DNA of 64,000 bases from Chrysophaeum taylorii. Taxonomy: Eukaryota; Sar; Pelagophyceae; Pelagomonadales; Pelagomonadaceae. The translations under genes were made by a program, and so were the position numbers. This document shows positions 42,913 to 64,000 of this stretch, piece after piece (positions within the stretch are counted from its first letter, which is position 1; every line of letters begins with the position of its first letter). The stretch spans positions 124,001 through 188,000 of the forward strand of contig JAQMWT010000480.1 of assembly GCA_029834535.1 (NCBI GenBank). The letters are read 5' to 3'. The notes beneath the pieces are model-generated. The model made no database searches, was not told the DNA's origin, and worked only from the letters and a program-made list of their open reading frames with translations.

Positions 42913-43771
42913 ATGCTCAAGGACACTCACCACGACTCGCACGAAGATCAATTTCGCTGCCCGTACAACAAGCCTAGACAGCGACGCAAGGTACGCGCAT
43001 CCTTTCTTCCTTGATATTCTCTGACATGCTCTCTCCTAGACGTCCAAGTTCATGCGCAAGCTGTTGTCGCTCATGGCGCAGCACCCGACAGTCATCTGGT
43101 TCGAGGAAAACTCGATCGTGATTTCCGACCCCCAGCGCCTCGAAGCCGTGCTCGACAAGCACTTTGGCCATCATCATTACACGTCATTGCAGAAACAACT
43201 CAACAATTTCGGCTTCAACAAGGTCATCAAGCCGAGTCATCCCTTCCTGACGACCTACGTCAAGGTTCGCGGGACAGCTGTCACCAAGATCTCGGACCTT
43301 CTCGACCTCCAACCGATTCATTCGATCCCGCGGCGACGTGCAGTCGGCGCGAAATTCATTGACGAAGACAACAAGGTGAACAAACACAATGATGTCGAGC
43401 AGCCGGTGCCCTCGCACACGTCCCCGCTTCTCCTCCCTTCTCCTCAGTTCGGTTTCGTTCCACCATTTCGGGTTCTGTTTCCAGCACTTCCCCTGGCACC
43501 GCCCGTTGAACCCAGCGCGTTGTTCAAGCAACCAGAAGATGCGCCCGAAAAACTTGCCCGCACCTACGACCATCTCCCGCTCGCGCCCACGCCACCGCGC
43601 GAGGTTGCGTTGCCGTCGTCCTCGCCCTTCGCACTTGGAAATTTTGCCTCACCTTTTTGCCGCGATGATACCGTGCTCGACGACTACGATATCTTCCCGC
43701 TTCTCCTCGCCGACGACTTCGAGCCCGAGTACTACGATATCTTCGGGCTTCTCCTCGCCGAAGACTTCTAG
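42913..43771 (+). CDS. HSF-type DNA-binding transcription factor
   Basis: Two exons (42913-42990 and 43040-43771) with a 49-nt intron give 269 residues. Residues about 25-95 are a heat-shock-factor DNA-binding domain: SKFMRKLLSLMAQHP, VIWFEENSIVISDP, VLDKHFGHHHYTSLQKQLNNFGFNKV, written here as short blocks of the HSF signature. The intron splits the start of the first helix block, and exon 1 supplies a short basic N-terminus. No leucine-zipper trimerisation region is obvious. The middle is Pro-rich. The C-terminus has a near-perfect duplication (YDIFPLLLADDF and YDIFGLLLAEDF) of acidic, bulky-hydrophobic type, a likely activation domain. HSF-like genes are multiplied in diatoms and other stramenopiles, so a nuclear regulator is likely; its targets are unknown. 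Confidence 0.8.
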
Positions 43772-44452: not shown

Positions 44453-44638
44453 TTTATAAGGGGCCACAAACTCCGACCACAAGGAGAGTACACTATACAT
44501 TTTGGACCACCTGCCTACATGTTTTCGACTCCGTGATGAGTAGTGGGCATCGGAGACCAAAGCGCCTTCGATTAGCAATGTGAGACCAGCGCTCTAATGT
44601 CACGTCATTTCCTATAGACATAGAACAAGAACCCACCT

Positions 44639-45073
44639 GTGACGGTTACTACAGCTATACGTGGCGAGAAGTGTATGGTCCAAATAGGCTAATCCGGAGA
44701 AGCCGCCCATACACACTTTTATACCGCTAGAAGAGATATAGAAGCCGCCCATACACACTTTTATACCGCTAGAGATATATCTACTAGCTGCCCATACACA
44801 CTTTTATACCGCTAGAGAGGAGAGAAGCCGCCCATACGCACTTTTATACCGCTAGAGATATCATACACACTTTTATACCGCTAGAGAGATGTCACCAAGA
44901 TGTCTGAGAGATGTCAGAGATGTCTGAGAGATGTCAGAGCGGTGACATCTCTCTAGCGGTATAAAAGTGTGTATGATATCTCTAGCGGTATAAAAGTGCG
45001 TATGCGCGGCTTCTCCGGATTAGCCTATTTGGACAATACACTTCTCGCCACGTATAGCTGTAGTAACCGCCAC
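44639..45073. mobile_element. Palindromic MITE with internal tandem repeats
   Basis: The element is bounded by terminal inverted repeats of about 70 bases (44639-44708 and 45006-45073), beginning gtg(a/c)cggttactacagc. Only a few bases differ between the arms. Inside lie about five tandem copies of a unit built on cccatacacacttttatacc and gctagag, then gatgtctgagagatgtcaga copies, then the inverse of the first units, so almost the whole element can fold on itself. It encodes nothing. A target-site duplication is not clear. Confidence 0.8.
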
Positions 45074-45359
45074 ACCACCCACCCCTAACCGCGCTGCCCC
45101 ACTTCAAAATTTCAAAATTTCAAAATTTCAACGGGTTCAAATTATCAACGGCGGCCTGAGTAAAATTTAAAATTTTATGCACCCTTTTCATCGCCCTTAC
45201 CCTGCGGTTTAGGTTCGACCGGAGTTTCCAAGAACCAGTACTCTAAGCAGTAATAAGTCAGACGCTTTTATGACGTCATGCTTTACGAATACTTGAAGCC
45301 GCACCGGGCTTGGTGGCTTCATTTGAAGCACGGGGTAGCACCCGAGAGTCGAAAGGGGA

Positions 45360-45609
45360 AAATCACCGTCCCCGCACCTTCCCCGTCCCCGCACTTTCTC
45401 CGCCCCCGCACCTTCCCCGCCCCCGCACCTTCCCCGCCCCCGCACCTTCCCCGCCCCCGCGCCTTCCTCGCTCCCCGCACCTTCCCCGCTCCCCGCCATA
45501 TCCCCGCCCCCGCACCTTCCCCGCTCCCTGCCATATCCCCGCCCCCGCACCTTCCTCGCCCCCGCGCCTTCCTCGCTCCCCGCACCTTCCCCGCCCCCGC
45601 ACCTTCCTC
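45360..45609. repeat. GC-rich minisatellite, left block
   Basis: Tandem copies of a unit close to ccccgcaccttccccgc, with variants carrying ccatatccc or gcgccttcctc. The same array continues at 52956-53190 on the far side of the LTR retrotransposon. It is one locus split by the insertion, as the shared cctc at both junctions shows. Confidence 0.85.
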
Positions 45610-46206
45610 TGTGCCAGGGTCGGATAAGAAAACGAGACTAGCCCGCGCCGCAACGACGGGTCCTACAACGCGTGGGCTTTTTCCTTTTTTTGCGTGAGGG
45701 GGCGAAAGGATGCCGGCTTCACTATGGGGACTAGTTCCATCGCGACGATCTCGCGGCGTGGCGGCACATACTGCTTGAGTACAAATGAACATAGCTCAGC
45801 GATCCGTTGAGTATGTCTTAGTACAAACTGAAACATAGTTAACGGCTCGTACGAACTTTCTTATCCGACCCTGTCTGTGGCAGTAATGCCCATTTCCCCC
45901 ACTTGCTTGCCTGCCACCTGACTTACCCTGATTGTTGCTCTGGTATTGATCTTGCATTTATGGGGGGGGTGTCATCTTGACACCTTCACCTGCGCTTCCA
46001 CTCGACCCAATGTACCGGGCATTTGTATTGCTTTCTTGTTGTATTCTTGATATTACCCTCTTTTGATTGTCCGATTTCGTAATGGCGTGAGGTGTTACGC
46101 TGAGATCGGGCGTGTGGTGGTTTCACCCGCGGTTCGGGTAGGGAGAAAGGGTTGTTGAGGCCCCCGGTCCGGCCAGGAGGGGCGGGTATCTGAGAAAACC
46201 ACTACA
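45610..46206 (+). repeat. Left LTR, split by a MITE
   Basis: The LTR starts with TGTG at 45610, is interrupted by the MITE at 45615-45873, resumes at about 45876-45880 and ends with CTACA at 46206. Without the insertion it is about 330 bases, matching the right LTR. Confidence 0.8.
45615..45873. mobile_element. MITE with 17-bp terminal inverted repeats, inside the left LTR
   Basis: This 259-base element has perfect 17-base terminal inverted repeats (CAGGGTCGGATAAGAAA). The target sequence tctgtg is found on both sides (45608-45613 and 45874-45879). A CAGGG terminus and a duplication of 6-8 bases are typical of hAT-like non-autonomous elements. It encodes nothing. It inserted only a few bases into the LTR, so it is younger than the retrotransposon. 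Confidence 0.8.
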
Positions 46207-47799
46207 GTGGTCTCAGAAACGGGAATCGATAGTCTAACTCTTGGACTATCGATCTCCTGTTTCTCGGCGGTGAGTCGGTTCGTAACGGTCGAGTGAGTGC
46301 GAAGCCGACGCATTTGTGGGTGAAGATCCAGAGGATCACGGGTACCTCCGCGGGGTTCATTTTACGTGATTCAGATCGAACGGGGAGCGGAGTCACTACG
46401 ACTCATTTTGCATACTTTTGCATATCGACTCATTTTGCATACTTTTGCATATCGATCGTCATACTGTGGGGCAGTATCGTAAGGCCTAACTAGCTCGTGC
46501 GCGGCAGACCACCTCCCTGACGGCGAGCGACTACACCGGGAAGGCCGTCCATAGTCTTCACGCGCAAGGCAATAGCTTTCGTAAGACCAGCGCACCGGTA
46601 CAGCGCGCAGTAATCAGACGGCTGCCGGCAATTGTCGTCTGACGAAAAGAATACAACAAGTGAATTGTGAACATCCGGAACAAACATATTATACGGGCAA
46701 ATCGCGATCATGGCAGAGAGGCCAATGACAGAACGATCGCAGTGGTTTCGGGACGCACAGGGGCGTCTGCAACGATTCAGTGCAGGGACTCCGTTTGCGT
46801 CTATTGGAAGAACACCGTTCAGTACGCCCTTTCAACGACAGGAAGCCGAGGAAAGCGGCATCGGAAGAGAGGCCAGATCATATGATAGCCTCGACAGCCC
46901 CCCGAGCGTGGCCATCCTTCCGGATCCACGCGGTGACGAAAGAGGAGATACGGTTGCGTCAGACGCAACTTCAAGACAAGGGGAGCCGACGTTCCCGTAC
47001 GCACAACCCTACGAACGTGCAATGAATACTACGGAGTCATCTCGAGCGGAACCCGAACCGTTTACGGCGATGCGTGGACCAGAGGAGAGTGCACCTCCTA
47101 GGCCACCATCTGTGAATATGAGAGCGACAGATTTTCGCGGGGATGTCGACCCCGAGGTTCTGCAGACCATCAACGAACGATTCGAGATGTACCAGTCGCA
47201 GATGGAGCAAATCATACGTGAACTTGAGAATACCCGTCGCGACGCTCAACAACAACGCTCAGAAGTGGAGCGACAGCGGATCGACAACGATCGACTTCGG
47301 CGAATGATGGAGGAATCCATGCAAGCGCATGCTCGAGAGGCACGGCCAACCTCTCCGAATGCTACGCGTGTTACGCCCGACGACGATAATGACGCTGTAT
47401 CGGCACTGACCGACGATCCGCCACCGCGAAGTCGACCGGAGCCTACCCCGCACCATCATACTGACCCCTGTTCGGCGCGTCCTCGTGACGAAGAAGAAAT
47501 ACTTCGTATCAGGAAGGGAGCTGCTGGTATGACACGTATCACATTCTCGAATCTCACGGGGCAAGTTACCAAGGACCGTGATGAGGTGGACGCGTGGTGG
47601 ATGCAATTGCGGCGTATGGTCGAAGGCGAGATCATACCGCATGAAGGATGTGTCAACATACAGCTAGAAGCCATTGATGACGTGTGTCATGCCACTCTTA
47701 CGGCTACTGTTGACGACGACGAAGTCGAGGAGGATGTCTTGAGTGACAGACCTCCTCCTCAGCCACCTCCAGATGAAGAGTTTGGATACCCATACCCAT

Positions 47800-48665
47800 C
47801 ACCTACACTTTTGTCGTCGTCTATTTTGCTGGCGCTGGAGGATCAACGTTGGGTATCCGGCGATGCAATGAGCTATATGGCAGTTCATTTCGCATTGTCC
47901 TGGCTTTGGATGCTTGTCCTCAAGCCCGAGCCACCTTTGAACTCAATTTTCCGAAGATTCCCTATGTTTTGCATGAGTTGGGGAAATCTCATCGTCGTAC
48001 ATACGACTTGGTGTTATTGTATTTGCATTCAGATTTTTGGAAGCACTCTTATTTTCACGCCAGTCCGCCGTGTATCTATGGATCGACTGCCAATTTGCAC
48101 TACAGGGACACACGCAAAGGCGCTACTATTACTTCCTGGGTCCTGCGTCATTTCCGCAACGCGCCTTATGTGCTTGGACGATGGACACTCGAGCAGGAAC
48201 CATCAGTGATCCCTTTTGTGCATCACCAATTTTATGTGCCGCGTATTGTGGATTTCTATAGTATCACGCCAGAGCTGCTGTGCTCGCGCACGCGCCTACT
48301 TGCTTGCAATGTTCGCTTGGAACTGCCGTTATTATCGCGTGTACCACCGAATTTACGGGACCGTTTTGGCCCAGCGTTGGGATTTACAGGTGGTCACCCG
48401 CTCATTATAGTGAACAGTTTCTCGTCTACGCGCCCGGCTATCGGCCCTGCCTTCACGGTGACGCGCAATAAGCTCCGCTTAGGACCTCATTTCTCGAACA
48501 CCCGTCCACTCACGTTGCAGATGCACCAGAAATTATGAACGTTCCTGCTACGTGGCAATGGGGTACGACAGTTTCCGAGACAGTAGCTATGAAGATGCTT
48601 GGCAGTATGGTGCCACCCGCGACTATGACGCGGATTGCGCTAGCAGTGCACAATTCGTTTGAACC
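47800..48665 (+). mobile_element. C5-cytosine DNA methyltransferase domain within the Ty3/gypsy element
   Basis: Between the gag-like region and the reverse transcriptase, the element reads as a C5-cytosine methyltransferase. Motif I is FAGAGGSTLGI at 47825-47857, the S-adenosylmethionine-binding loop, followed by LALDACPQARATFELNFP (motif II region). Motif IV with the catalytic Cys is ASPPCIYGSTAN (about 48059-48094). A motif VI-like WTLEQEP follows near 48184. Further on are PAFTVTRN (near 48450, like the PxxTVT block before motif IX) and MLGSMVPPATM (near 48597, motif X-like). Order and spacing match compact bacterial-type enzymes. These enzymes methylate carbon 5 of cytosine in DNA. It is part of a broken element, so it is treated as a fossil and no activity is claimed. 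Confidence 0.8.
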
Positions 48666-51600
48666 TTCACTTCGAAATTTGGGTAAGTTGCGGAATATTG
48701 CGACGACTACGCTAGCCCAACCTGATCACCATATTCTACGGTTTTCACCTTTTGCTGTAGAGTCGCGCATTCCAACGCTCGACCCTGCCACTCGAAGTGT
48801 ATCATGGATTGCGCCCGATGAACTCTATTCTCCTGCGAGTCCTGCACCATCAGCTGCTGCCACCACCACCCCGCCACCACCTTCAGTTACATCGCCTGGG
48901 ACGGCTTCATCTTTGCAGGGGGCACCGTCGCCACTGCTGTTATGCAGAGCAACCAAGTTGATAACCAGCCCTCCGCAACTGCTGAAGAAGAAGGCACCGC
49001 GAAAGAGCGACCAGCGTATTTCAATACGTACGACGTTCCGTGGGCGGACGCGCCTCACGACGAACATGGTCAACCTTCACCGGTGATGCCTCCTCATTTA
49101 GCGGATCAGGAGAGCATGCAGGTCATCCCTCCGACCGTCGCGCAGGTCGAAGAGGTGATGACTGAATTGGGTATTACAGAGCATCCTGCTTTAGATGATG
49201 ACGAGAAGCTGATGATGAAGCATTTAATCTCGTATTCGTGGGCATTTTTCGATGATGTGATGAGACCTGTTGATTCACCTGAAGTGACGCTCCGGTTCAA
49301 AGAAGAGAACCCGACTCCCGTCAAACTCTCGCCATATCGGTTGTCGAAAGAAAAGATTGAATGTTTGCGGATGCAGATTGAAGCATGGACCCGAGACGGA
49401 GTTATTCGTCCCGCGAATTCTCCATGGGGTTTCCCTATTTTGATGTTGCCTAAGAAAGGTGCTGAGCCTGGCACTTCCAATGCTTACAGAGCAGCTGTCG
49501 ACCTACGGCGCCTCAATGCATTGCTCAAGGATGATAGCTGGCCGAGTGTGAGCATGGCTGACGCGTTGATGTTTCTCATTGACAAGTTTTGTCGTTCCAG
49601 TTTGGATATTCGTTGGGGCTATCACAATTTACGATTGTCGCTAGATGCACAAGATGTGGTCACCTTCACTAGTCCTCTGGGAGCGTACAGCTACATGCGT
49701 CTACCTTTGGGAGTCAAACCAGCCGGAAGTTTGTTTTGCAAGCAGTTGAACACTGACTTGTCGCAATGGCTATATCGTGATCTCGTGGCATATATCGACG
49801 ATATTCTCGCCGGTCACGCAGATACAAAGAATCACTTGCAGTGCCTTGTGCAAGTTATTCCCCATCTCGCCTTGAAGGGGTACAGCGCCAAGATCAAGAA
49901 GATTCATTTTATGCAAGAAGTCATTGAGTTTTTGGGTCATTTATCTACCCCGAACGGACTTCTTCCATCACCAAGATCTTTAGAAGCCATCAGACACATG
50001 CCAATTCCTGGCACTTTGTCGGATGCTGACCCTAAGAAGCAAGTGCGATCTTTCCTTGGAATGGGGAGCTTTTGCCGGCGTTATGTAAGGAATTTTGCGA
50101 AAGTTGCAGAGCCATTAAGACAACTGACGTTGCCGGACGTGAAATTCAAGTGGACGAAAGAGTGTCAGGAAGCTTGGGATGCCATCATCGAGGCTATTGT
50201 CACTTCGAAGGGCGTCTACCATCCTGATTACTCGTTGCCTTTTACATTCGAACTGATGCTTCCGCGCATGGGTTGGGTGCTTACCTATTTCAAAAAGTAC
50301 CAGTCGTTGACGACGATGGAAGAGAAAGAATCGAAGAGAGAGTTATCGAGTACTGGAGTCGAACCGTGCCTAAGTCGATGAGGAAGTATGATCCTCGGCG
50401 CTTGGAACTCCTCGCAGTACTCTCTGCTCTCGAAAATTTCCGATTTTATATCGAAGGTCATCAGACGAAGTTAGAGACGGATCATCGTAATTTAACGTTT
50501 CTGCGGGATTCGAATCATACGTCTGGACAGTTAGCACGATGGGCTATGCGGCTTGCTGCGTTCGACCGGGAGCTCGGATACAAGCCTGGAAGCTCCCCTG
50601 GCATGCGTATTCCGGATTGTCTGTCGCGCAACCCTATCGACAAATTGATCGAGAAAGATGAAGACGGGGAACCGATCAATGAAGCTTTTTTGATTTTCCA
50701 AGAAATCCCCACCGATGTCCCTGGCACAGCTTGCTTCACCTTCTCTTCGGTGACGATGCCTATGCTGACGGACAGCGGACCCACCGCAGCTATGGTAGCA
50801 GTTAGTACGCGACAGAACGTACAACCGCCTCAATTCTCGTACGAGTCTGAGCCAGTTGGCTCCGTCGAACGTCTCCCTTTTGCGGATCAAGCGGAGGATG
50901 AGGTCACTCTCGATGAGATAGCGAAAGAACAAGCTGAGGATGAAACACGCAAGCGCATCAGACGAAAGCTCGACTCTGAACAGAAAGATCAAGACGAGCA
51001 GTCATCCGTACCATATGAGATTGATAACAACGTGTTGTATAAGGCCGATGATTCAGCTTCTCAACGTCTTATTGTGGTCCCTCAGTCTACGCAGAAGCGT
51101 GTGATCGCCATGCATCACCGAGGCTTGTTCGGAGGCCATGTAGGGCGAGATTCCACAGCGAATCAAATCTTAGAACGGTATTGGTGGCCAACGTCTCATC
51201 ATCCGTTTATGAGTTCGTCAATGCCTGCATTATTTGCCAGAAGATTCGATCCACCATGCCTAGGCGCCATGGCTTGCTCTGTCAACCGAATCGCGTCGGA
51301 GACTGCTATGTCCTAGGTATGGATTTGATTGGACCTCTGCGAGGCGCTGACCTGTACACGTACATACTCGCAATGTACGATGCAGCATCACATTTCTTGA
51401 AATTAGCTCTGATCAACACGAAGCATGATTATTCGTTTTTGAACGCGTTCGTGGACAAGATTTTACTTGAGGGATGTCTCCCACGGTGCATAGTCATGGA
51501 TAATGGAAATGAGTCCGCGAACAGGCTATTTCGCACGTTTGTTCGTCAATTCAACGTACGTTATCGTACTACCCTTCCGTATCATCCTCAGAGTAATCAT

Positions 51601-52628
51601 ACTGAGCGTGTCAATCGATTCATCAAAGCCTTCTTGCGAGCTGCGATCGATGAACAGCGTCAGCCAGACTGGTCGAATTTCCTCCCATATGTGTCATTCA
51701 TGTACAATAGGATGTACATTCCGGGAACGAAGATTTCACCTTTCATGATGCGTACTGGCAAGCTACCCCTGTTACCACCCGATTACAATCTTTTGTGTGA
51801 ACAGCGTGATCTACCGCAATCACGTCATCAGATTTTGGTGGACTTTAAGAACAAGTTTGAATTTTATAGTCGACTCGTTACACGAGCTCATCAGAAAGCA
51901 CAGGAGAGTCAAAAACTCAACTATGATGCCCACCAAATTGACATCCAGTTTTCCCCAGGTGATTATGTTCAGCGTTTCGTGCCTAAGACACGCCACAAGC
52001 TACGGCCCATTTGGCGCGGACCTTACATGGTTACTAGAAAGATCTCTCCCGTCGTTTATGAAATTCAAGACGTTAACGACGATGATGCTGAATCGGTTGT
52101 AGTATCTGTACAACAGATTGTGCCTTTGAAAGTGCCAACCATCGACACTTCTTCAGCCCCTCTGCATTTACCCTCGGACCGCGACCGGTTCAAACATGGT
52201 AAGTTCGTGATTTTCAGGGTGAAAGGACGATCCAACGCGTGGAAGAAGCGTATCTATGTTGCCGAAGTCTACGAAGAATATGACCACGACAATGATACAG
52301 TTGCGCTTCACTATTATACCGATTTGGGACCACGCGATGATCCTCGCGTCTTTGATCCTACTAAGCCTCTGGCTGAGCGACGCTTAAGACCAGAATACAA
52401 AGATCCTGACGGAGGTAGCTTCACACGCCTACGACCCAACATGGAGGGCTGTGAGTCCTGTGTGACTGATTTTCGCCCGGATGAAATCGATGTTCTCGTC
52501 ACTAACTTCGGTCTCCACAGCAACAAAGTTCCTGCTGATGTAGCTGAACGAGCTTATCGTACCATTCGTGAGCGTGACCTTCGTCACCCTTGAAGTCGAG
52601 GACGACTTCATCTCAAGTAGGGGGCTCC

Positions 52629-52955
52629 TGTGGCAGTAACGCCCATTTCCCCCACTTGCCTGCCTGCCACCTGACTTACCCTGATTGTTGCCCTGGTATT
52701 GACCTTGCATTTATGGGGGTGTCATCTTGACACCTTCACCTGCGCTTCCACTGGACCCAATGTACCGGGCATTTGTATTGCTTTCTTGCTGTCTTCTTGC
52801 TATTACCCTCTTTGATTGTCCGATTTCGTAATGGCGTGAGGTGTTACGCTGAGATCGGGCGTGTGGCGGTTTCACCCGCGGTTCGAGTAGGGAGAAAGGG
52901 TTGTTGAGGCCCCCGGTCCGGCCAGGAGGGGCGGGTATCTGAGAAAACCACTACA
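52629..52955 (+). repeat. Right LTR
   Basis: 327 bases from TGTGGCAG to CTACA. About ten substitutions and two small length differences separate it from the left LTR, giving roughly 97% identity. A G-run (gtaggggg) just upstream is the likely polypurine tract. Confidence 0.88.
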
Positions 52956-53190
52956 CCTCGCTCCCCGCACCTTCCCCGCTCCCCGCCATATCCCCGTCCC
53001 CGCGCCTTCCTCGCTCCCCGCACCTTCCCCGCTCCCCGCCATATCCCCGTCCCCGCACCTTCTCCGCCCCCGCGCCTTCCTCGCTCCCCGCACCTTCCCC
53101 GCCCCCGCACTTTCCTCGCCCCCGCACCTTCCCCGCCCCCGCACCATCCCCGCTCCCCGCGCCTTCTTTTCCTCGTCCCCGCGACTTTCC
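52956..53190. repeat. GC-rich minisatellite, right block
   Basis: This continues the array of 45360-45609, with the same ccccgcaccttcc units and ccatatccccg variants. Its first bases (cctc) duplicate those left of the retrotransposon. Confidence 0.85.
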
Positions 53191-54065
53191 CCGTTCCCCT
53201 TGAGATTCACGGGGTAGCACTGCCCCTTCTTGGCTTAAGGCAATAAAGTGTCGGTTTCTTGTAAGCGGCAAGTCCTGCCCGACCGTCCCCCGCGCGCGCT
53301 CCTCACCACTCACAAAGAGTGTGCGACTCACCCTGTGGCCATGGGCCCAGATCTCGCGCCTTTAGCGCGTGACGCACCGCACGTTACAGCCCTGCTCCTT
53401 TACCATCCCGCTTCCTCCTCTTGTCGCGCCTTCATTTCCTGCGCCTATTGCGCCACTTTTTGCGGCTCTCTTCGCTCTCTGAGAATCGCATCTCCTTCGC
53501 TCCGCTAGACGGCCTCTGCTTTGCCCTGCCCACCCCTGTGTTCGTCATCACTCTTCTAGAGTGTGCGACCTTTTATTATCCTATGGATGTGAGGGGGCTG
53601 TAGGAATATGACGAAAGAAGCCGGGGGAGAAGAGAAGGGCACTGCTTTTGTAGTGCTTTAGCTCTTTGGCCGCGGTGACAAAACCGCCGTCAACATTTTT
53701 ACAGTTTTAGGCGGTGGTGAGTAGAAGGTCCAAAGTTCCGCCAGCCGCTCGCAAGAGAAAGAGAGCAAATTTCTTCTACCGTTTTCAGCCCATACACAGT
53801 CATGTGTACGACTACCCGTTTCCTAATGTTAAGGCGGGTGCATTGATGTGTCAGATGTGAGCAACATAACGAATGCAGCCAGTGTTTCCGAAGAGCCCAG
53901 GATGTCGCTCGGACTTCGTCACGTGCCTCAATTTCGATGCGGCGAGGCGTGTCCTGGCGTCAATCGCACTCTGCGGTCGAATGCGAAAAGCTGTTGCTCG
54001 AAGATAAGACTTCGCGCATTAAAAAGCACGGCGCTCATATTCGAACTTCTACTCTTGTGTGTCTG
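53191..54065. other. Spacer between the minisatellite and the HbpS-like gene
   Basis: No gene is recognised. Pyrimidine-rich sequence at 53390-53560 faintly resembles the 44066/58200 repeat pair. The right end must include the 3' untranslated region of the HbpS-like gene. Confidence 0.35.
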
Positions 54066-54778
54066 TCAGTGGCCACCGAGGGACGACGAGCGCCACGACT
54101 CGGACGGCGTTCCGGGGTTCGACATTAAGTTGGCACCGCGCACCGCATTTATTGCTGCCATCTCGTCCTTGTCCGACGTGTCACCGCTAACGCCAACGGC
54201 ACCTATCGCCTGGTTACGGGTGTCGAGAATAAGAACGCCTCCGGGAACCGGGACAAAGCGGCCTTGCGAAACCTGAGTGACGCTGCAGGATGGAAGCGAC
54301 TGGCGCGACGCACGTCACTGAGTGCCCCGATAAAGAATGGTCGGTCTTTGAGTCTGTCCCGAATCTTTCTGCTCGACATCCCCTGCGGCCAAAGTAGGAC
54401 AAAATCACTCGCTGTCGCGAATGGCACGCGTGCGTATCATGACTGAACTCAAGCGATGAAGCACGACAGCTCACGTACCATCGACAACGCAGCGTACGCC
54501 TTGGCTCGAGCGATGGAGGTGCGCATGACGCCGCACCCATCTTCGCGAAGGACGACGACATCGTTGCCCCCGGCATCAAGCACGACCACAGCTAACGGCA
54601 AGAGATCGAGACGGCGGCCACACGACAACACTCCGTCTGCGACGCCGCGAGCATCGTGGAGAGTGAGGGAGCTCACAACTGGAGTCAACTGTTCGCTTGC
54701 CATGTCCGCGCTGCTGTACATCTTGGAGGTCAAGAATGCCGCCGCGGGCAAGGCGCATGACGTCGCGAGACGCAACAT
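54066..54778 (-). CDS. HbpS/GlcG (DUF336) family protein
   Basis: Three exons (54778-54479, 54382-54314, 54272-54066) with introns of 96 and 41 nt give 191 residues. The family blocks are clear: LTLHDARGVADGVL, AVVVLDAGGNDVVVLREDG and ARAKAYAALSM in exon 1; SSRKIRDRLKDRPFFIGALSD in exon 2 (residues 101-123, shortened here to its recognisable core RPFFIGAL); and VPGGVLILDT, IGAVGVSGDTSDKDE and an AAINAV helix in exon 3. HbpS of Streptomyces binds haem, and GlcG is encoded in glycolate operons; the enzymatic role of the family is not settled. The N-terminal 25 residues could be an organelle presequence. This intact host gene lies isolated inside a transposon-rich region. It is common in bacteria, so a transfer origin is possible, but it has acquired introns of the local type. 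Confidence 0.8.
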
Positions 54779-54799
54779 TCAAAATCCTTACCCCTCCGA

Positions 54800-55080
54800 C
54801 TAGACCTCACTTGCGTCAACTTCGCAGAGGCCAAGGCGGCCCAAACTCGGCGCATCTACCGTGACTGGGGGATCGCCAACGCATTAGGCCGGGCGCGCTG
54901 TGCCCTCACCGCCCTCACCCATGTCGACGCCTCGAGCAGCCCCACCCAGGCCGCCCTATCCGAGCAGGACGTCACCCTTCGTCGCACATACGTCCGGCGG
55001 CAGCATGCGTACGACCTACGGGCGGGGCCCGTCCTCTCTTCGCCAGCCCCGCGGCTCGGCGATGACCCGGACTAGGTCCC
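54800..55080 (+). repeat. Dispersed repeat with conserved coding tail, copy 3 (best preserved)
   Basis: This copy keeps an open frame of about 90 codons running from TCVNFAEAKAAQTRRIY through SSPTQAALSEQDVTLRR and RRQHAYDLRAGP to RLGDDPD and TAG at about 55073-55075. The matching frame is recognisable at 9003-9297 (minus), which suggests that the family once encoded a protein ending here. No domain is recognised. Its other members are 12308-12553 and the tail at 28806-28860. Confidence 0.6.
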
Positions 55081-55257
55081 GCATACCTATCTACGTCCGT
55101 CAGGCACATCCTTCACACCCCGCACAAAACACAAAAAACAAGCAACCACACGCACCCCCCCTCTTAGCAGTCGTGGGTCCCTCTCCAGTCCGCCGCCTCC
55201 AACTCGTCGCTTCTCATTCCCATCACCGACCCAGCCCCCCGCTTGGGGGGCACCCTT

Positions 55258-56929
55258 CTCTTATAACATGGAAGTCCAAAATACAGCCCATAACTGCAAC
55301 CTCCACTCATGAGAGTGAGCTCATCGCTCTTAATACTTGCGCTTATGATGTGGCTTGGCTACGTAAGCTGCTGGCGGAAATGGCATTCGCAATAAACCCG
55401 CGATATTATCGCCGCCAACCTTCAGGTAAAGATTTGCTGCTGGACTATGATGCCCACGACAATCCTCTGCCATCGGATATGACGTTCATTCGTAACAGCC
55501 CAGTTCTTGGGGACTCGGCTTCTGCTATCCATTAGTCAAATAACCCCGACAGCGCGACTAAAGCTACAGCTATTAGCACTCGCTGGTTCCGTATTCGTGA
55601 CTATGTTCAATTAAAGCTTCAGACTGAAGAGCACAAAGCTCATTGCTTTGACGTCCCACGCCCAGTCTATCTCGCTGCGTGCTCGATTTGCAATCTGTCC
55701 AAGCAAGGCATTCCTAGCTTAATGTCCTGCATAGACGATTTTAAACTATCTTGTGCGGATGAGCATCACGCACACATTCGTGCAGCCCTGCTACGTTTTG
55801 GTAAAACCATTCCAATTAATAAAAGGCTCAAAGAAGCTATTCTCGAGCAATTGGCAGCAAGGAACATTAAAAGTTCTGACTTTCTGGTTAATCTGGATGA
55901 TGATACTGGAGCGCTACTCTTCCGGCTTCCGATCTTCTCGATTATAAGTATTGAGCATCTTGTTGTATGCTGGTCACTTTTGCACACTATGGAACCAAGT
56001 GTCCTATAGTGAACAACCCCGAAGAATTCCTGGCGGTTCTTATCGATTCTTTTGTATCTTGCGCTCTACGCCAACAGGAGTTAATGGTAGCTTCCGATCC
56101 TAATGCACTACCATCTTTGTTGGATTACTTCATTGAACTGGCACCAGAACACCAAGGTGCTTTTTCAAGCAATCTTGACCAAGCTGGCTACCCATCATCT
56201 ATTGCTGATGCACTTTCTATTTCAAAACCGACAGACGACAAAGTAATGTCCGCACCCGCTAAACCCAACAATTCTTCTGTTAATGAATCTTCAGACCATT
56301 CTTCTTCTGATGCCATAGAAGAGCTTGAAACCAAACTCACTGAAATGTCTAACAAGCTTGTCACTATCCAAGATAAAATATCAGCATTGCATGCGTCCTT
56401 TGAGCAGCTTAGCGCTAAATTCGAGCTACTTAATACGCAAGCCACAACTAACACCAATAATCTGGCGCTCTTAGATGATCGACTATCTAATCAGCAAATG
56501 CACCAGGATAATTCCTTGCCTGCTTTGGCCGAGCTCACTCAGATTCTTGCCCGCTCAATCCTTGGATCTATTGAGCAAGAGCAGTATAATGAAGAAAACC
56601 CTGCTCAACAAGCTGGACTCGAAAAAGCCACTTCAAACCTACATGATGTGTTGTTTGACTCCAATGATAATCTTATAACTGCTTCCAACCTTCGCCTCAT
56701 GTCTTCGGCTGCTGCTCTCTCTTATACAACTTCAGTACTTTCTCCACTCAGCTCTTTGTTTGCCTTCCATAATGGTACGACAACACTACTAACGATGACC
56801 TCGCAAGTGGAGCAACCAGACGAATCAAAAGAGACTGAAGATGAGTTGGACTACATCTCATCTTCGAAGGTGGATCAGGACGCAATGCGCAATTTAACAA
56901 CGCGCAGCGCGACTTCCCCTTCACCATAA
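55258..56929 (+). mobile_element. Ty1/copia 3' fragment with an unusual C-terminal extension
   Basis: The fragment starts inside the RNase H domain (WKSKIQPITATSTHESELIA, then AYDVAWLRKLL) typical of Ty1/copia. Downstream it continues with a Cys-containing block (VPRPVYLAACSICNLSKQG, LMSCIDD; about 55.65-55.75 kb) that recurs at 57.59-57.69 kb. It ends in a 320-codon coiled-coil-like region rich in Ser, Leu and Asn (about 55.97-56.93 kb). Base composition is distinctly lower in GC than in the host genes. The 5' part, integrase and reverse transcriptase are missing and the rest is broken in a few places, so it is an old fragment. Long C-terminal extensions after RNase H are uncommon in copia elements. 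Confidence 0.6.
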
Positions 56930-57299
56930 ACACTCATATCTGTCCTCGTTTTGTTATGTCTTGTTTAATTGTTTGGCGTTTCGCGTCTAGCGCACAATCT
57001 TCGCTCTCTCATGAGCGTCTGGAATGCATAAAGCATTTTCCACACGTTGAGGGGGTCCAGAAAGTTGACTCATAATATGTAAGACGCTCTGGAGATCTTT
57101 GCACATTTTCTCACACGCCATCATCATGAGGGTTTTCTCTCCGAATTAATACGGCTTTCCCTCATGCTTACGCTTCTCCCCCCTTCCGCTTTCGTTCTTT
57201 CTAGATTATGAGATATCATCTAGAGTTTCTCTTCTGACAAGGAGAAATCCACCAGGTGCGTGCCGTAAGGTCCAGAGTCTTTTGCTTAATTAGCAGGAG
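56930..57299. other. AT-richer spacer after the copia fragment
   Basis: No gene is seen. It may contain the decayed 3' end of the copia fragment; I found no matching LTR within the window. Confidence 0.3.
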
Positions 57300-58138
57300 C
57301 TCTGTTCCTCGTTGTCAGTGTGAAAGCTTCTACGGGACTTAATGTCCCTGTGGGAGTTAGAAGCCAAATTCCTGCCTCGAGTAGTAACACGTGACATGCG
57401 GAATGGTCTGTACACGCCTAAGACCGCACGCGGTCTCTGCCATGTACCCGGAGTGGGTCAAATCTCTCCAGAAAGAAACCACACCTGGGACGCCTCATAT
57501 CATTACCTCTGGTACTGAAGACGATCCAAAATTAGAAGAAGACACGAAGTTGGTAGAATCCCGCTTGGAATCCGAGGATCATAATTATCATCGGCTCAAT
57601 GTACCTCGCCCGGTTTACCTGGCTATTTGTGTTAGATGCAACCTTGCGTCTCATGGCATGCCAAAGCTTATGTCTTGCTTAGACAACCACAAGTTGTGGA
57701 GAGATTTGACCCACTCCGGGTACATGGTAGAGACCGCGTACGGTCTTAGGCGTGTACAGACCATTCCGCATGTCACGTGTTACTACACAAGGCAGGAATT
57801 TAGCTCCTAACTCCCATAGGGACATTAAGTCCCGTAGAAGCTTTCTCGCTGACAACGAGGAACGAAGCCTCTGTTAATTAAACAGAAAACCCCATACCGT
57901 TAGGTTAATTAAACAGAAAACCCCATACCGTTAGGGTATGGGGTTTTCTGTTTAATTAACAGAGGCTTCGTTCCTCGTTGTCAGCGAGAAAGCTTCTACG
58001 GGACTTAATGTCCCTATGGGAGTTAGGAGCTAAATTCCTGCCTTGTGTAGTAACACGTGACATGCGGAATGGTCTGTACACGCCTAAGACCGCACGCGGT
58101 CTCTACCATGTACCCGGAGTGGGTCAAATCCCTCCAGT
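57300..58138. repeat. Inverted-repeat cluster, three arms of about 190 bp
   Basis: Three near-identical arms lie in the order plus (57300-57475), minus (57690-57905) and plus (57948-58138). Each contains cttctacgggacttaatgtc, gtgacatgcggaatggtctg and a cccggagtgggtcaaat block. Arms 2 and 3 form an almost perfect hairpin centred near 57930, with aaccccataccgttagg at its tip. Between arms 1 and 2 is a 215-base insert encoding a second copy of the PRPVYLAxCxxCNL block (NVPRPVYLAICVRCNLASHG). This looks like a foldback arrangement built from pieces of the copia-type element to the left. Confidence 0.7.
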
Positions 58139-58199
58139 CTGAGGGAGGGTTGGAATCTATTTCAAGAAATGCGGCGTTACGCAACACGCCCTGAGCGGA

Positions 58200-58304
58200 A
58201 TCACTCTTCCCCCTTAGCACAAGCGGCGGTCTTGGATTGCTCCAGCTCCTTGGGTGGTAGCGGCGGCGACGGCGGTTGTGGCTGCCCCTCCATTCAAGTC
58301 CGAG

Positions 58305-58374
<70 letters not shown>

Positions 58375-58730
58375 CAAGTTCCAAACACCCATTATCCTTG
58401 CGCCCTCAACAATCGCTATTTTCATGCTTTTCTCTCGCGGCTTGCGTCACCATTGCTTTCACCATCCCTTTCGTTCTGCACCACGCTCCTTGCGCCCTCA
58501 CGCAATGTGCTCATATTGCGGTATCACCCCTTCTTCTCTCTGTGTTTCTGTTTCTCCCTGCGTCACAAGAGCCTTTCACGTAGAGCCTTTCACGTCTCCT
58601 TTGCGCTTCATTGCGCTCTTCTTCGCCGTCTCCTGCGGTCGTCTATCGCCGTTTCTTCTTTCTTTTTCTTTCTCTGCGACCGTCCATTCTGGCGCTTTTG
58701 ATCCTGGGAGTTGCATCAATCCGTAACAAT
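58200..58730 (+). repeat. Dispersed repeat pair, right member, with microsatellite
   Basis: This is the partner of 44066-44452. It carries a compound microsatellite at 58306-58374 ((CT)n followed by (AC)n) that the left copy lacks. The closing block gaccgtccattctgg and cctgggagtt matches the left member. Confidence 0.55.
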
Positions 58731-58739
58731 AAATCCGTG

Positions 58740-60185
58740 TTCAATGCCAATATCGCGGCAAATTGAGGAAACTTATGGCCAAACAAAATCGACGTTCGTA
58801 AATGAAACTAGCTGCGCAGTGCGTCCAGCGAGCGAACTTCCAAGGTTTTTGGATGTGATTGATTGCGACTTGGGGATCAAATCTTAGACGCACCGAGCGG
58901 CCCAACTGTCGCTGAAAAGCTCATTTTCGCGCCATTGTTTGAAAGCGTCCGCACGTGGTTGCATGAGACTCGACATGGCGGCTATTTGACGAGCCGGCGT
59001 ACTAGATTCTGGTTGTAATTCATGATTCGGCCTCTTGAGCGACTGCAACGTTGGCGCCGGACAGACTAAAGGTTCGGTTGCTACGGAATGTTACTTGGAC
59101 TATTGCCGGACGGAAACCGGACGAAACGACGGGGCAACCCCATTTGACTTTGCTTACGCGCAACAATTAATCAAGCGAGAGTCCGAGGCGCAGAAAAGAT
59201 TTTCAATGCTTTCGATCGAACGCCCGGAACAAGCGCAACAGTTAGCACTGCCACTCGATGCTGAATGTGGAAGAGCGCATTAGAATGAGCTGGGGATAAT
59301 TTAGGCTGATTTGTGAGTTGCGGTTATATTTAGGTGATGGAGTCCGTGTTCCTCGTCCTGTTGATGAAGCGACGACCACGACGGTGGCAGCGCCAACGTC
59401 GACCCTTGAGTAGACTCCGTTGAAGTAATGCGTGCGTCCGAACGTTGCGGCAACAAATCACCGCCATTTAAGGTTGCCGCAAGTACAGTGAAACGAGAAC
59501 TTATGTTTTACTTGGTTGACGAAGAAAATTAGGGCCGGCGCGGCAGGGCTTTGGCTGAAAAAAAAAAGGGGGGGATCGCAATTAGGGCAAGGGCTGATTA
59601 GTTAGATCGAACTATTCCGTGGTTTAATTAGAGCTTCACCATGACTTAGTTGGGGCAACGTCGATGGCTTAGTTTGATTCAAATGATATCAAACTAAGCC
59701 CAAGTGGTTCAAACTAAGCTGGAGCGTTGGGACGTGCACCAAAATAACCCGCAAGCCAGTTTCCGTGCCGTGCCACCCGTCATATCCGCACGGCACGGCG
59801 AAACCGTGCCGCCCCAAGAGCTGCACGGCGCGGTCACAGAAGTTATGTACTAGACTCGCTAGGCCGCCCACGTGCGCTTGTTATAGGTCTTCGGGTGGCT
59901 CTCCGTTCGGTTCCGAGGGGATCTCCGACGTTTTCTTGAGGCGTCTGCGCAGGAGATGTCCGTACTGCGCGCGGGCTTATTCGATGGACTCGCGATTCAT
60001 GCGGGATACAACGAGAGTGTCGTGTTCTTCGCATAGTCTTCGGACGCTGACGATGAGCGGCACCGCGCACTATTCCTGGATGGATTACACCCGTTGTACA
60101 AAGCACAATATGTGTAAGGAAGAACACACACAGACCCTCCCTCTCTTCGAGAGGGCTAGTTATTCAACCGAGTTATATGTTTCTC
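58740..60185. other. Intergenic, no confident gene
   Basis: An 82-codon plus frame (59035-59283) ending SIERPEQAQQLALPLDAEC is the most protein-like stretch but is not recognised and may be gene debris. Small palindromes lie at 59668-59702 (ggcttagtttgat and its inverse) and around 59763-59820 (ggcacgg arms). Nothing else is supported. Confidence 0.35.
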
Positions 60186-60312
60186 TGTTACGAATGGTAT
60201 GAGGCGTTAGACTAGCTGTGAGGAAGCTATGATACTTACCCCTGCACCACGTATCCAGTATCCTTACGTCTTTCTCTTATCGCTAGTCTAACGCCTCATA
60301 CCATTCGTAACA
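60186..60312 (+). repeat. Left LTR with 31-bp terminal inverted repeats
   Basis: The LTR runs from TGTTACGAATGG to CCATTCGTAACA. Its first 31 and last 31 bases are perfect inverted copies (through ggcgttagactagc), whereas LTRs usually have only 2-6 bases of inverted repeat. The boundary is set by TG...CA and the adjoining primer-binding site. Confidence 0.7.
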
Positions 60313-60799
60313 TGGTACCAGGTGTCCAAGGCCGAACGACCTGAGCTTGACTTCACGGACAACAGCGACTCCTCCTCGGCTTCAGTTCATTGCTACGTGT
60401 TCGGTTCGTTATCGTTTATCATGTCCTCGATCGAAATTAAGGATAGCAAGCTTTCGCAAAAACTCGATGCTTTCAGTGGTGAGCGACATCTTTTTCACCA
60501 ATGGACCCGGCGCCTGGAAAACATGATCATTTCCACCGGTGATCGCATTATCTTGACCACTGACACTTGGACTAGCATTTCCGCTTCTGGCTGCTCTGAA
60601 GAAGAATTTGGTCTCAAGCAGCAACGCTGGTACAGTGCACTCTTCATGGCACTACCAATGCATGATACTGATCGCGCGGATATCCGTGAAAACCGCGACA
60701 TGAACTTCACGCGACTTTACAAGCGCATTACCGATGTCTACATGGGCCGTGGATCGCGTATTGAACTTCCTCAACAAGTTCATCATCGGAGTATACAAT

Positions 60800-60895
60800 T
60801 TGCTTAGCATTGTACCTATCACCGGCGTTCAAGTTGCTAGCATTTTACCTATCACCGGAGTTCAAGTTGCTCGGCATTGTACCTGATCTGACGCA
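60800..60895. repeat. Short tandem repeat in the copia element
   Basis: Two to three copies of a unit of about 46 bases built on tgtacctatcaccgg and gttcaagttgct lie just downstream of the gag-like region. Confidence 0.6.
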
Positions 60896-62814
60896 CCCTC
60901 GAGTGTGTCCTCGCATTTGACTACGTGCATCGTGCTTCAAGCCTTACTGGCTTTGTTTTATCGTCTCGCGTTTCGTACCGATGAATGTGGTTCTACCCTT
61001 GAGAAGTTCAACAACAACCAATTTCGATGGCATGCACAACCACTTCCGCCGCGCTATCCGCCGCGTCGTCAGCCACGACTTCAGACTCTTCCAACTGACC
61101 TACCCTAGACGCCCCCCTTTCCCAACAACCTGGCTCTACTCGATTCCGACGCACTACCCGATGTCTTTTTGGCGGCTGCAAGGATCACTTTAAGGGGGAC
61201 TGCCGCAAGTTTCAAACTTCTTAGCTATTCCACGACAACGCCCTACCCACCATCGCCATTCTTCTCAACAGCGCAGCACTTTCAAGATAATTCCAAGTCA
61301 ACGTGTGTACCGCCGAATGTCTGATGCAAGCACATCAACACCCCATCCCACGGAAGCCCCTCGTTTTTGTTTTTAGCTCCCATTGCACAGGCGCCTCGTT
61401 CTGTATTTTCCGCTATTCGTTGCTCCACCCCTCGTTCTGTATTTTCCCCTCGTCGTTGCTCCCCTCCTCGTTCTGTATTTCGCCTATTCGTTGCTCCACC
61501 CCCCGTTGTGCATTTTCAGCTATTCGTCGATCCACTCCTCGTTGTGCTTGTCGGTTTTGTTTTCGTGCTTCCTATGTGGTTGGATCGCTCTTCTTCGGGA
61601 TCCTGTACAGATACTTCTTTGCTGTGTGATTTGTGGTTCTCCTTCACGCATTTTTTTTTTTCGCCGCTTTTCTGACCTTTAAAATTCGGTTTTGCTATCG
61701 ACGTGAATTCCGTGCTCAGCACCCGCGACGCTATCTGCAATGTTCTTACGTGCCACTGCGACGCTATCAGCAAGCTATCTGCAACGTTCTTACGTGCCAC
61801 AACTGTTTTGCCACTGTCGTCAACTTCTACCGGAGTCTATTCGAGTATGACGAACGAAGCTCACCGCTTACTCCTGCAACGTTGGCCCATGAAGCTCACG
61901 TTTGTCGATGATCATACGCGCCGCCGCACGCGTTACTTTGCTCCACGACACGATGCCCTTACGAACGCTCGTCAACTCGAACTTTTTTCTGTCTACCGTG
62001 GTTCGCCCATTCGGATATCGCGTTGCCCTCATCTACACCGATCGTGACCGCTCTCTTATGGGCCAATTCGAAACCTTCTGTCTGGGCAACAATATTGCGC
62101 TTCGGCGCTCCGGCAGCACAGTCCAAAACTTCACAGGCTCACGCTTTTTCCGGTGTTGTGGAACGCTCTCATCGCGCAACCGCGGATATTACTCGCACTC
62201 TTTTGGTACATGCGCACCGTCCACCTGATTTTTGGCGTTGGGCCATGGAAACGGCTGACTTCATCTCTGAGCGTATGCCAAATGCCTCTAGGAGGATATA
62301 TGACGCCATATGAAATGCTACATGAAACACTCCCGCGTGTCGATTTTCTTCGTGTTTGGGGCTGTCCTGCTGCAATTCTTACTGGCGACAAATGGCCTAC
62401 CAAAGCTATAACCGGTATCTTCATTGGGTATCCCTCTGCTGGCCCTGGATATCGCATATTGCTTCAACGCCCCACAGGTCCTGTCATCCACACCTCGATT
62501 GATGTTGTTTTTGACGAAAATTTCGCTCTGCGTAAGTCACTGTCCACCCAACCCCTTCCTCCGTCTCTCGTGGATTCTCTTTTTCCTGACTTGTTTTATT
62601 ACGACCCTCGTCTATCTTCGGCCATAGCCCCCATATCTTCTGTTTTTGATGCTCCGGAGCCGGCCTTATCGGGACTGATCACCCCAGCGTCACTGCCCAC
62701 AATGTTACCGGCCAATACGAAACGTGCACCATTACGTCGTGCCAAACGGGGCCGACCGCGCAAAGTCGACCAACCAACAAACTTTTTTACGGGCCATGTT
62801 TCATCCTGTCACAA

Positions 62815-62900
62815 TGTTGATACGGGCCATTCTGATGTTGATACGGGCCATTCTGATGTTGATACGGGCCCTTCTGATGTCGATACGGGCCATTCTGTTT
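62815..62900. repeat. 21-bp tandem repeat encoding DVDTGHS
   Basis: About four copies of gatgttgatacgggccattct, 21 bases each, keep frame and encode a heptapeptide repeat (DVDTGHS with one GPS variant) in the linker between integrase and reverse transcriptase of the copia element. Confidence 0.75.
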
Positions 62901-64000
62901 CCTCCTGTCGTGATGTTGATTCTGTTTCCTCTGTCGCTTCTGTTTCCCCCTGTAACTCTTTGTATGTCTCTTCTGTTAGCTTTCGTTTGTTAGTTCATTA
63001 TGTCTTCCTTCCCCTTTGTTTAGCTAACACCCTTGTTGATCCTCATGCACACGTTTATTACTCTGCTTCCGAAGAAATGTCCCAGTATTCAGACCTTGAC
63101 GAGACTACTATCACTTCCACCCATTTACGTGAAGCTTTAGCTCCGACCAATCCTGAGCGTCCTGGCTGGTTGCAAGCCATCGGTAAAGAATACAGCTCTC
63201 TTGGTCAACTTGGTTGTTGGGATGTGATTCGCCTCCCTCAGACTTTTTCTGGCAACATTTGTACCCTCAAGTGGATCCTCCGCAAGAAGTATGACTCTGG
63301 CCGCTTCAAATCGTACAAGGCTCGCCTTGTCGTCCGCGGTTACACCCAGGTTCACGGCGTTGATTATCATGACACCTACTCACCGGTCGCCAACATCGTC
63401 ACGATCCGTTTCTTTCTGACCTTTGTCGCTGTTCATGACTGGGATTTGCACAAGTTGGATGTTAGCTCCGCTTTTATTCAAGCTCCCATTGACGAAGACA
63501 TCTATGTCTGGCCACCCGAAGGCTATGCTCCTCGCCAACCCACCGATGGTTCCAAAATCGTTTACAAGCTCCGTCGCTCTTGGTATGGTTGCAAACAAGC
63601 TTGTCGCAATTGGTGGCTTTATTTGGAACGCTTCCTTCTCAATGATTGTGGCTTCGTCCGCGGATCTGGTGACACTTGCCATTACAAGCTCGTCCTCCTA
63701 CCGTGGTCCTCCGTTTTGGTCGTCGATGATCTTCTTGTGGCGCACCCTCCTCATTGCATTGGCCATTACCAAGCCTTTTTCCTCCGTTTCCGCGCTTTCA
63801 CTGACGTCAATGAACTCGATCTCACCTCTTACGTTGGTCTCCGCATTACGCGTGATCGCCCTCGGAGAACCCTCACCCTTGACCAATCCCATGCTATCCG
63901 TGAAATCCTTACCGAACATCGCTTCATCAACAGTAAACCCGAACTCACTCCCGCTCCCAAAGGTCTTCATCTTTCTGCGGCTGATTGTCCGGCTCCTGGT

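Follow-up and report, generated by a model that had tools for sequence, protein, structure and literature searches.

Putative C5 cytosine methyltransferases carried in the pol region of Ty3/gypsy and Ty1/copia retrotransposons of the pelagophyte Chrysophaeum taylorii

Introduction

It is already known that retrotransposons, gypsy elements included, can carry DNA methyltransferases (DNMTs): LINE and DIRS elements of Symbiodinium do so, as does a gypsy element of Klebsormidium (PMC5890265). The earlier note on the DNA analysed here had correctly referred to such captures in dinoflagellates and charophytes. In yeast, according to the same paper, de novo CG methylation was obtained with two DNMT3 enzymes from DIRS elements; the enzymes from gypsy and LINE elements gave no activity there, a result that the authors term inconclusive. 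The LINE-borne enzymes (SymbioLINE-Dnmt) are assigned to an orphan lineage, and the Copia elements of Symbiodinium are described, in the part of the paper cited here, as being without a DNMT domain. The published captures are tied to DNMT3 or to this orphan lineage, in dinoflagellates and a charophyte. A further account places some DNMT3 members in LTR Copia and DIRS elements of streptophytes and dinoflagellates (PMC12344493). For Copia it cites the 2018 paper, whereas the relevant part of the 2018 paper says Gypsy, and our own copia profile retrieved no DNMT3 chain from the PDB.

KnitGypsy-Dnmt3 of Klebsormidium nitens (PMC5890265) is, like the element described below, an LTR gypsy element with a cytosine methyltransferase in its Pol polyprotein and under purifying selection, its Ka/Ks being below 0.2. 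Its enzyme is a DNMT3, whereas the enzyme reported here retrieves no DNMT3 or DNMT1 chain from the PDB at E values up to 10; its host is a charophyte, whereas ours is the pelagophyte Chrysophaeum taylorii; and its repeats, by the paper's legend, are arranged as in DIRS elements, whereas our copy has two ordinary LTRs. SymbioDIRS-Dnmt3 and SymbioLINE-Dnmt (PMC5890265) offer another likeness, in that a single algal genome contains C5 methyltransferases by the hundred inside its elements, but their carriers are DIRS and LINE elements rather than Ty3/gypsy and Ty1/copia.

Among stramenopiles, transposable elements with captured epigenetic domains also occur in Ectocarpus, where chromatin-reader domains are found in Gypsy elements and an N4/N6-type methyltransferase in a Sola1 DNA transposon (PMC12477816). 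The part of that account cited here notes no C5 methyltransferase in a retrotransposon, unlike our case. A review mentions Dam/Dcm-type elements in stramenopiles in general terms, lumping adenine and cytosine enzymes, and in the passages concerned names no stramenopile cytosine case (PMC6338049).

We found no report in the open-access literature of a cytosine methyltransferase in a pelagophyte LTR retrotransposon, and the string "retrotranspos" is absent from the main text, as available, of the genome paper for C. taylorii NIES-1699 (PMC10366177). What is new here is the host lineage, an enzyme that does not appear recognisable as DNMT3 and, most surprisingly, a second capture in Ty1/copia. 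The earlier note had proposed an independent Ty3/gypsy case in a likely stramenopile; a gypsy precedent exists in KnitGypsy-Dnmt3 (PMC5890265).

A damaged Ty3/gypsy element

We analysed a 64-kb stretch of one C. taylorii contig (hereafter the window; the genome comprises 70.8 Mb in 697 contigs) and found a damaged Ty3/gypsy copy at 45875-52955 (Table 1). The matching LTRs previously reported around the enzyme are present; their identity is 95.8%, and 10 of the 328 aligned bases are mismatched (K2P 0.031). This was the sole copy in which a target-site duplication could be sought, and its flanks gave no match. Reverse transcriptase (RT), RNase H and integrase are spread over three successive frames, and their order, shared with copies L033 and L034, is that of Ty3/gypsy elements.

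Table 1. Features of the window element and of the copia enzyme. Positions are those of the window unless a locus is named.
Feature	Position	Strand	Basis
5' LTR, 332 bp	45875..46206	+	pairwise comparison with 3' LTR
Gag-like frame, interrupted	46671..47780	+	tblastn against copy L030
Putative C5 cytosine methyltransferase, motifs I-IX	47777..48538	+	PF00145, 19.4 bits (cut-off 22)
Motif I, FAGAGGSTLG	47825-47854	+	read in frame 47777-48538
Motif II-like	47897-47917	+	frame 47777-48538
Motif IV, ASPPCIYGS (SPPC)	48059-48085	+	frame 47777-48538
Motif VI-like, WTLEQEP (EQE)	48182-48202	+	frame 47777-48538
Motif VIII-like, SRTRLL	48278-48301	+	frame 47777-48538
Motif IX, PAFTVTRN	48446-48469	+	frame 47777-48538
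Methyltransferase C-terminal part with motif X, other frame	48529..48690	+	95% identity to L030 over 48529-48774
Motif X, GSMVPPATM	48601-48627	+	second frame
Reverse transcriptase frame (AYIDDIL, 49788-49808)	48822..50381	+	RVT_1, E 7.9e-14
RNase H and integrase zinc-binding frame	50228..51316	+	RT_RNaseH, E 5.6e-25; Integrase_H2C2, E 6.6e-9
Integrase core and C-terminal domains	51052..52593	+	rve, E 4.2e-6 (below its cut-off); Integrase_p58_C, E 2.4e-6
3' LTR, 328 bp	52628..52955	+	pairwise comparison with 5' LTR
Copia C5 methyltransferase (putative)	L009:4682-6340 (G000:C96); also L003-L008, L010-L028, L038-L040		PF00145

Alignment with L030 by tblastn (L030 residues 1-165, then 1031-1085) indicated that about 873 codons are missing from the window copy at about 47616-47633. 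Absent with them are the C-terminal part of gag, a nucleocapsid-like motif (CxxC/H) and a protease-like one (DGMAD), which in other copies were named by eye and have no Pfam match. Because the lost codons lay between gag and the linker ahead of the enzyme, the enzyme in this copy appears to adjoin gag; and because of the same loss and the splitting of pol over several frames, the copy is not autonomous in its present state. The extent given earlier for the methyltransferase, 47800..48665, had the place right, but the segment extends over about 47777-48690, and a frameshift near 48530, ahead of motif X, splits it.

A GC-rich tandem repeat with a unit of 17-18 bp (ccccgcaccttc-like) flanks the element at 45350-45644 and 52945-53204, the second array overlapping the final bases of the 3' LTR and the first ending about 230 bases ahead of the 5' LTR, as if the element had inserted into a minisatellite. 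Downstream of the integrase, a conserved stretch (HGKFV.FR...W.K.IYVAEVYE) occurs at 52195-52590 and at the end of the L034 frame; it could be a chromatin-reader-like module, and window 52102-52590 had no Pfam match at E 0.01.

The segment resembles a C5 cytosine methyltransferase

Motifs I, IV, VI-like, IX and X were all present where they had been claimed and in family order. For membership in the Pfam family DNA_methylase (PF00145) we used the curated cut-off of 22 bits, and frame 47777-48538 scored slightly below it (19.4 bits, E 8e-4). The profile matched all five aligned members of the gypsy enzyme, with a best E of 1.4e-9. Among open copies the scores were 30.9 (L029), 31.5 (L030) and 28.2 bits (L033), or 37.9 (L029) and 25.3 bits (L034) for the domain alone; L032, at 21.9 bits, fell slightly below the cut-off. 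In a profile comparison, the gypsy enzyme aligned with P0001, a free-standing metagenomic C5 methyltransferase, over 260 columns that were colinear from motif I to motif X (probability 86.6, E 4.4e-6).

The motif IV cysteine (SPPC), the RxR of motif VIII, the TVTR of motif IX and the VPP of motif X were invariant and in order in the five members, and motif I was nearly so, one member having GVGG. The usual C5 consensus has ENV in motif VI and PPCQ in motif IV; here motif VI is EQE, and PPC is followed by I or V. The enzyme is compact, at about 300 residues, and its target-recognition stretch is very short, about 50 residues separating motifs VIII and IX as read from the alignment. Against 177,635 distinct PDB sequences its profile gave five matches, none of them significant (E 0.16-1.5); two are bacterial-type enzymes, and the other three are DNMT2 chains (E 0.75-1.5). 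No DNMT3 or DNMT1 chain appeared in that set at E up to 10. An AlphaFold model of the window frame from its single sequence had a pLDDT of 30.8 and no usable fold.

Judged by profile match and domain order, the data support the earlier proposal of a stramenopile Ty3/gypsy element with a C5 methyltransferase, and we regard the window segment as a putative enzyme of that class. Chance or misread motifs are ruled out by the profile matches in all five members together with the selective constraint described below.

Copy number and gene order of the gypsy family

Searching the genome with the window segment returned at least 155 matches. Of the 150 listed, 139 formed group A (identity 55-100%), merging to at least 131 places, and 11 formed group B (identity 43-44%). 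A search with the group-B segment gave 118 matches at 78-100% identity; the enzymes of the two groups are about 40% identical to each other. With at least 131 group-A places, a chance insertion in one copy is ruled out.

Many gypsy copies are broken, and many others carry the segment in long open frames, of up to 2,129 aa in the window-segment search and 3,067 aa in the group-B search. At two places, enzyme and RT lie within single open frames of 3,063 and 3,067 aa. L033 joins PF00145, RVT_1, RNase H and integrase in one 2,115-aa frame, and in L034 a single frame of at least 2,906 aa stays open from ahead of the protease-like motif to the end of the integrase. The order in the longer copies is gag-like region, protease-like region, methyltransferase, RT, RNase H and integrase. 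The enzyme had been described as lying between gag and pol; it is indeed ahead of RT, but really inside pol, between the protease-like region and RT. No LTR pair was found in L029-L034, which are stretches of 10 kb or less.

The linkage to RT is regular. In group A, the segment lies upstream of 73 of the 100 listed RT places, on the same strand and no more than 4 kb away; the spacing is 572-615 bases in 50 of the 73, and 79 of the 139 listed methyltransferase matches have a listed RT downstream. Among the matches listed, the remaining 27 RT places and 60 methyltransferase matches are proof of neither loss nor presence. The segment is a family-wide feature under selection. The window copy had been called a broken fossil of such a system; it is damaged, but the family, with its many long open frames, is not a fossil.

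Selection on the gypsy enzyme

Six between-subfamily pairs, differing at 18-21% of amino acids, gave dN/dS values of 0.069-0.080 for the enzyme domain (NG86), at dS values of 1.4-1.7 that are near saturation; between groups A and B, synonymous sites are saturated. In 120-codon blocks of L033 against L031, dN/dS over the enzyme was 0.097, 0.052 and 0.120, compared with 0.174 and 0.432 in the adjoining blocks on either side and 0.10-0.24 further upstream; RT, at 0.018-0.065, was tighter than the enzyme. Block identities between L034 and L032 were 71-85% in the enzyme, 12-51% on the gag side, 61-71% on the protease side and 87-97% in RT. Contrary values came from two pairs with the stop-bearing L036 (0.57 and 0.22) and from four very close pairs with few changes (0.15-0.64). 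The gypsy enzyme is preserved by purifying selection.

A second capture in a Ty1/copia family

A PF00145 search of the genome gave 57 matches, the two best of which resembled host genes. We examined 21 of the other 55 (L003-L028), and all 21 carried one and the same enzyme, distinct from that of the gypsy family. In L009, an RVT_2 match (E 1.6e-38) and a weak integrase match (E 0.006) identify a Ty1/copia element, whose C5 methyltransferase lies after a protease-like motif (DGGAS) and before the integrase. PF00145 matched five of five members (best E 3.6e-9). The motifs include TLPCQ, ENV and LANAVP, with about 300 residues between VIII and IX (IX and X having been assigned by eye), and a genome search with this enzyme returned 129 matches, pieces included. 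The profile found no DNMT3 or DNMT1 chain among the 177,635 distinct PDB sequences at E up to 10.

The copia enzyme had dN/dS values of 0.086-0.496 in 28 pairs from eight copies, all four values above 0.3 involving L010. Compared with the linker that follows it, the enzyme gave 0.09-0.12 versus 0.34 in the pair with L013, 0.11-0.19 versus 0.57 with L012 and 0.05-0.22 versus 0.24 with L011; with L010 there was little contrast (0.09-0.52 versus 0.45).

Two LTR superfamilies each hold an enzyme directly after a protease-like motif, that is, in the same slot. We consider this the most telling fact on function, since it points to an enzyme that the protease frees and that is packaged alongside the enzymes of replication. 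Right before the copia gag-like frame, at L009:1657-2090, lie two adjacent identical 217-base copies, which are either a tandem duplication or an assembly effect.

Relationships of the captured enzymes

A single capture common to gypsy and copia was not supported: comparison of the two profiles gave a probability of 0.1, and the enzymes were not sisters in two rough ten-sequence trees, whose deep branches did not resolve and which include P0001, chosen by the copia profile. The gypsy profile scored P0001 at 14.0 bits and the host DNMT2 at 6.3 bits, and the copia profile scored them at 33.5 and -2.1 bits; host DNMT5 was listed by neither. For copia the comparison of P0001 with DNMT2 is biased, because P0001 was found with the copia profile. 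An origin from host DNMT2 or DNMT5 was not borne out, neither element enzyme being close and the gypsy profile scoring DNMT2 at just those 6.3 bits. The gypsy enzyme resembles host DNMT2 by eye around motifs I-II, but that score and a different motif X speak against descent from it. A DNMT3 origin, as in the published gypsy case, also appears unsupported, with no DNMT3 chain at E up to 10 and no significant PDB match for the gypsy profile; by these comparisons the captured enzymes do not seem recognisable as DNMT3.

Among protein-database sequences, no relative of the gypsy enzyme was found in sets of 2,250 and 4,685 candidates, and the copia enzyme had one match among 7,999 scored, P0001 (E 2e-3). 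Neither enzyme matched viral contigs, nor did the gypsy enzyme match bacterial and archaeal genomes. Across these sources (protein database and viral contigs for both, bacterial and archaeal genomes for the gypsy enzyme), we found no relatives of either element in another organism.

Host methyltransferases and traces of methylation

The two host-like PF00145 matches are L001, which is DNMT2-like (PDB 1g55, named DNMT2, E 4e-39), and L002, which aligns with PDB 7r76 across 640 residues (E 3e-143) and whose 2,086-aa frame also contains an SNF2 match. Although deposited as "DNA repair protein Rad8", 7r76 is, we take it, the Dnmt5 of Cryptococcus, and L002 looks like a host DNMT5 gene. Beside the DNMT2-like gene, at L001:688-2316 on the minus strand, is what by eye resembles a fucoxanthin-chlorophyll antenna protein, which would presumably fit a photosynthetic stramenopile. 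In an exon-by-exon PF00145 search that scored 123 of 474 candidates, no host DNMT1, DNMT3 or DNMT6 was seen. DNMT5a and DNMT6 have been reported from pelagophytes (PMC9998398), so the host list may be incomplete.

CpG observed/expected ratios, from stretches that include some flank, were as follows: gypsy group A, 1.03-1.06 (four stretches); window element, 1.11; gypsy group B, 1.18-1.26 (three stretches); copia, 1.01-1.08 (four stretches); and the two stretches with host genes together with the window's first 44 kb, 1.26-1.46. Gypsy group A and copia show a mild CpG deficit relative to host DNA, and window 53500-64000 is alike (1.09). Unpolarised pairwise C/T differences among 14 copia copies amounted to 12.6% at CG, 14.2% at CT, 10.5% at CC and 7.8% at CA. 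In three gypsy sets CG was likewise never the highest, and these four sets indicate that CpG is not hypermutable. The CpG data count against heavy, lasting CpG methylation; they neither prove nor exclude methylation.

Possible function of the element-borne enzymes

On balance we lean towards a role in which the enzyme methylates the element's own cDNA. It would be made as part of the pol polyprotein, packaged with RT into the virus-like particle and freed by the protease; if catalytically active, and if its substrate is DNA rather than RNA, it would then methylate cytosines of the cDNA during or after reverse transcription. New copies would integrate already marked, and the element might benefit through protected cDNA or through tuned chromatin once inserted. 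Our observations of gene order, motifs, copy number, purifying selection and RT linkage agree with such a role, as do the PF00145 matches in five of five members, the alignment with P0001 and the yeast activity of the DIRS-borne enzymes. Weighing against it are the EQE and PPCI/PPCV motifs, the lack of a CpG trace, the near-saturated dS values, the higher dN/dS in close and L036 pairs, the low pLDDT and the yeast experiments cited above, inconclusive by their authors' account, in which gypsy- and LINE-borne enzymes gave no activity (PMC5890265).

It seems to us unlikely that the domain has a methyltransferase fold but a task other than on DNA, such as methylating RNA or binding nucleic acids inside the particle. 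Such a task would accord with the altered motifs IV and VI, with the short interval between motifs VIII and IX, with the DNMT2 chains, enzymes that methylate tRNA, among the five weak PDB matches and with the RNA role proposed for SymbioLINE-Dnmt (PMC5890265); yet the motif IV cysteine and the residues of motifs IX and X are invariant in the five aligned members, and none of those PDB matches is significant, the best having E 0.16.

We are slightly more doubtful that the enzyme acts on the host genome, through de novo cytosine methylation that host DNMT5 would propagate and that would alter host silencing. What invites this idea is that the DNMT2-like and DNMT5-like genes are the sole host-like PF00145 matches, with no DNMT1 or DNMT3 seen among the 57. 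That inventory, however, comes from a search that scored about a quarter of its candidates and from 21 of the 55 other matches, the reported pelagophyte DNMT6 (PMC9998398) does not figure in it, and there is no CpG decay signature. A stronger version, in which de novo cytosine methylation would come mainly or solely from retrotransposons of the two families, through their separately captured non-DNMT3 enzymes, and a maintenance-type host DNMT5 would perpetuate the marks laid on cDNA, so that parasites would write the methylome and the host copy it, is in our estimate improbable.

That the enzyme is a functionless passenger, kept merely for sharing an open frame with RT, could appeal to the many broken copies, that in the window among them, but is already contradicted and has almost no chance of being right, given the lower dN/dS over the domain than in its flanking blocks (L033 against L031: 0.05-0.12 versus 0.17 and 0.43), its retention in groups A and B despite enzymes only about 40% identical, and the different enzyme held in the same slot by a second superfamily.

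With methylation of the element's own cDNA as the preferred reading, these elements may mark their own DNA with a chemical tag that hosts use for silencing. Two separate captures at the same pol site, of enzymes that do not look like DNMT3, suggest that retrotransposons profit repeatedly from having such an enzyme on board, and that its presence is no accident of one enzyme family. The small genome (71 Mb), the finding of only DNMT2-like and DNMT5-like host genes and the available culture would make the purpose of element-borne methyltransferases testable in one strain.

Other features of the window

Upstream of the minisatellite, at 44638-45074, are nested inverted repeats that resemble a foldback element, with 94-nt arms 96% complementary and 75-nt arms 99% complementary. 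A gene with an HSF-type DNA-binding domain lies at 43040-43771 (PF00447, E 1.3e-10). Another RT, of copia type, occupies 63170-63925; because it is only 28% identical to the RT of the methyltransferase-bearing copia family, we assign it to a different copia lineage.
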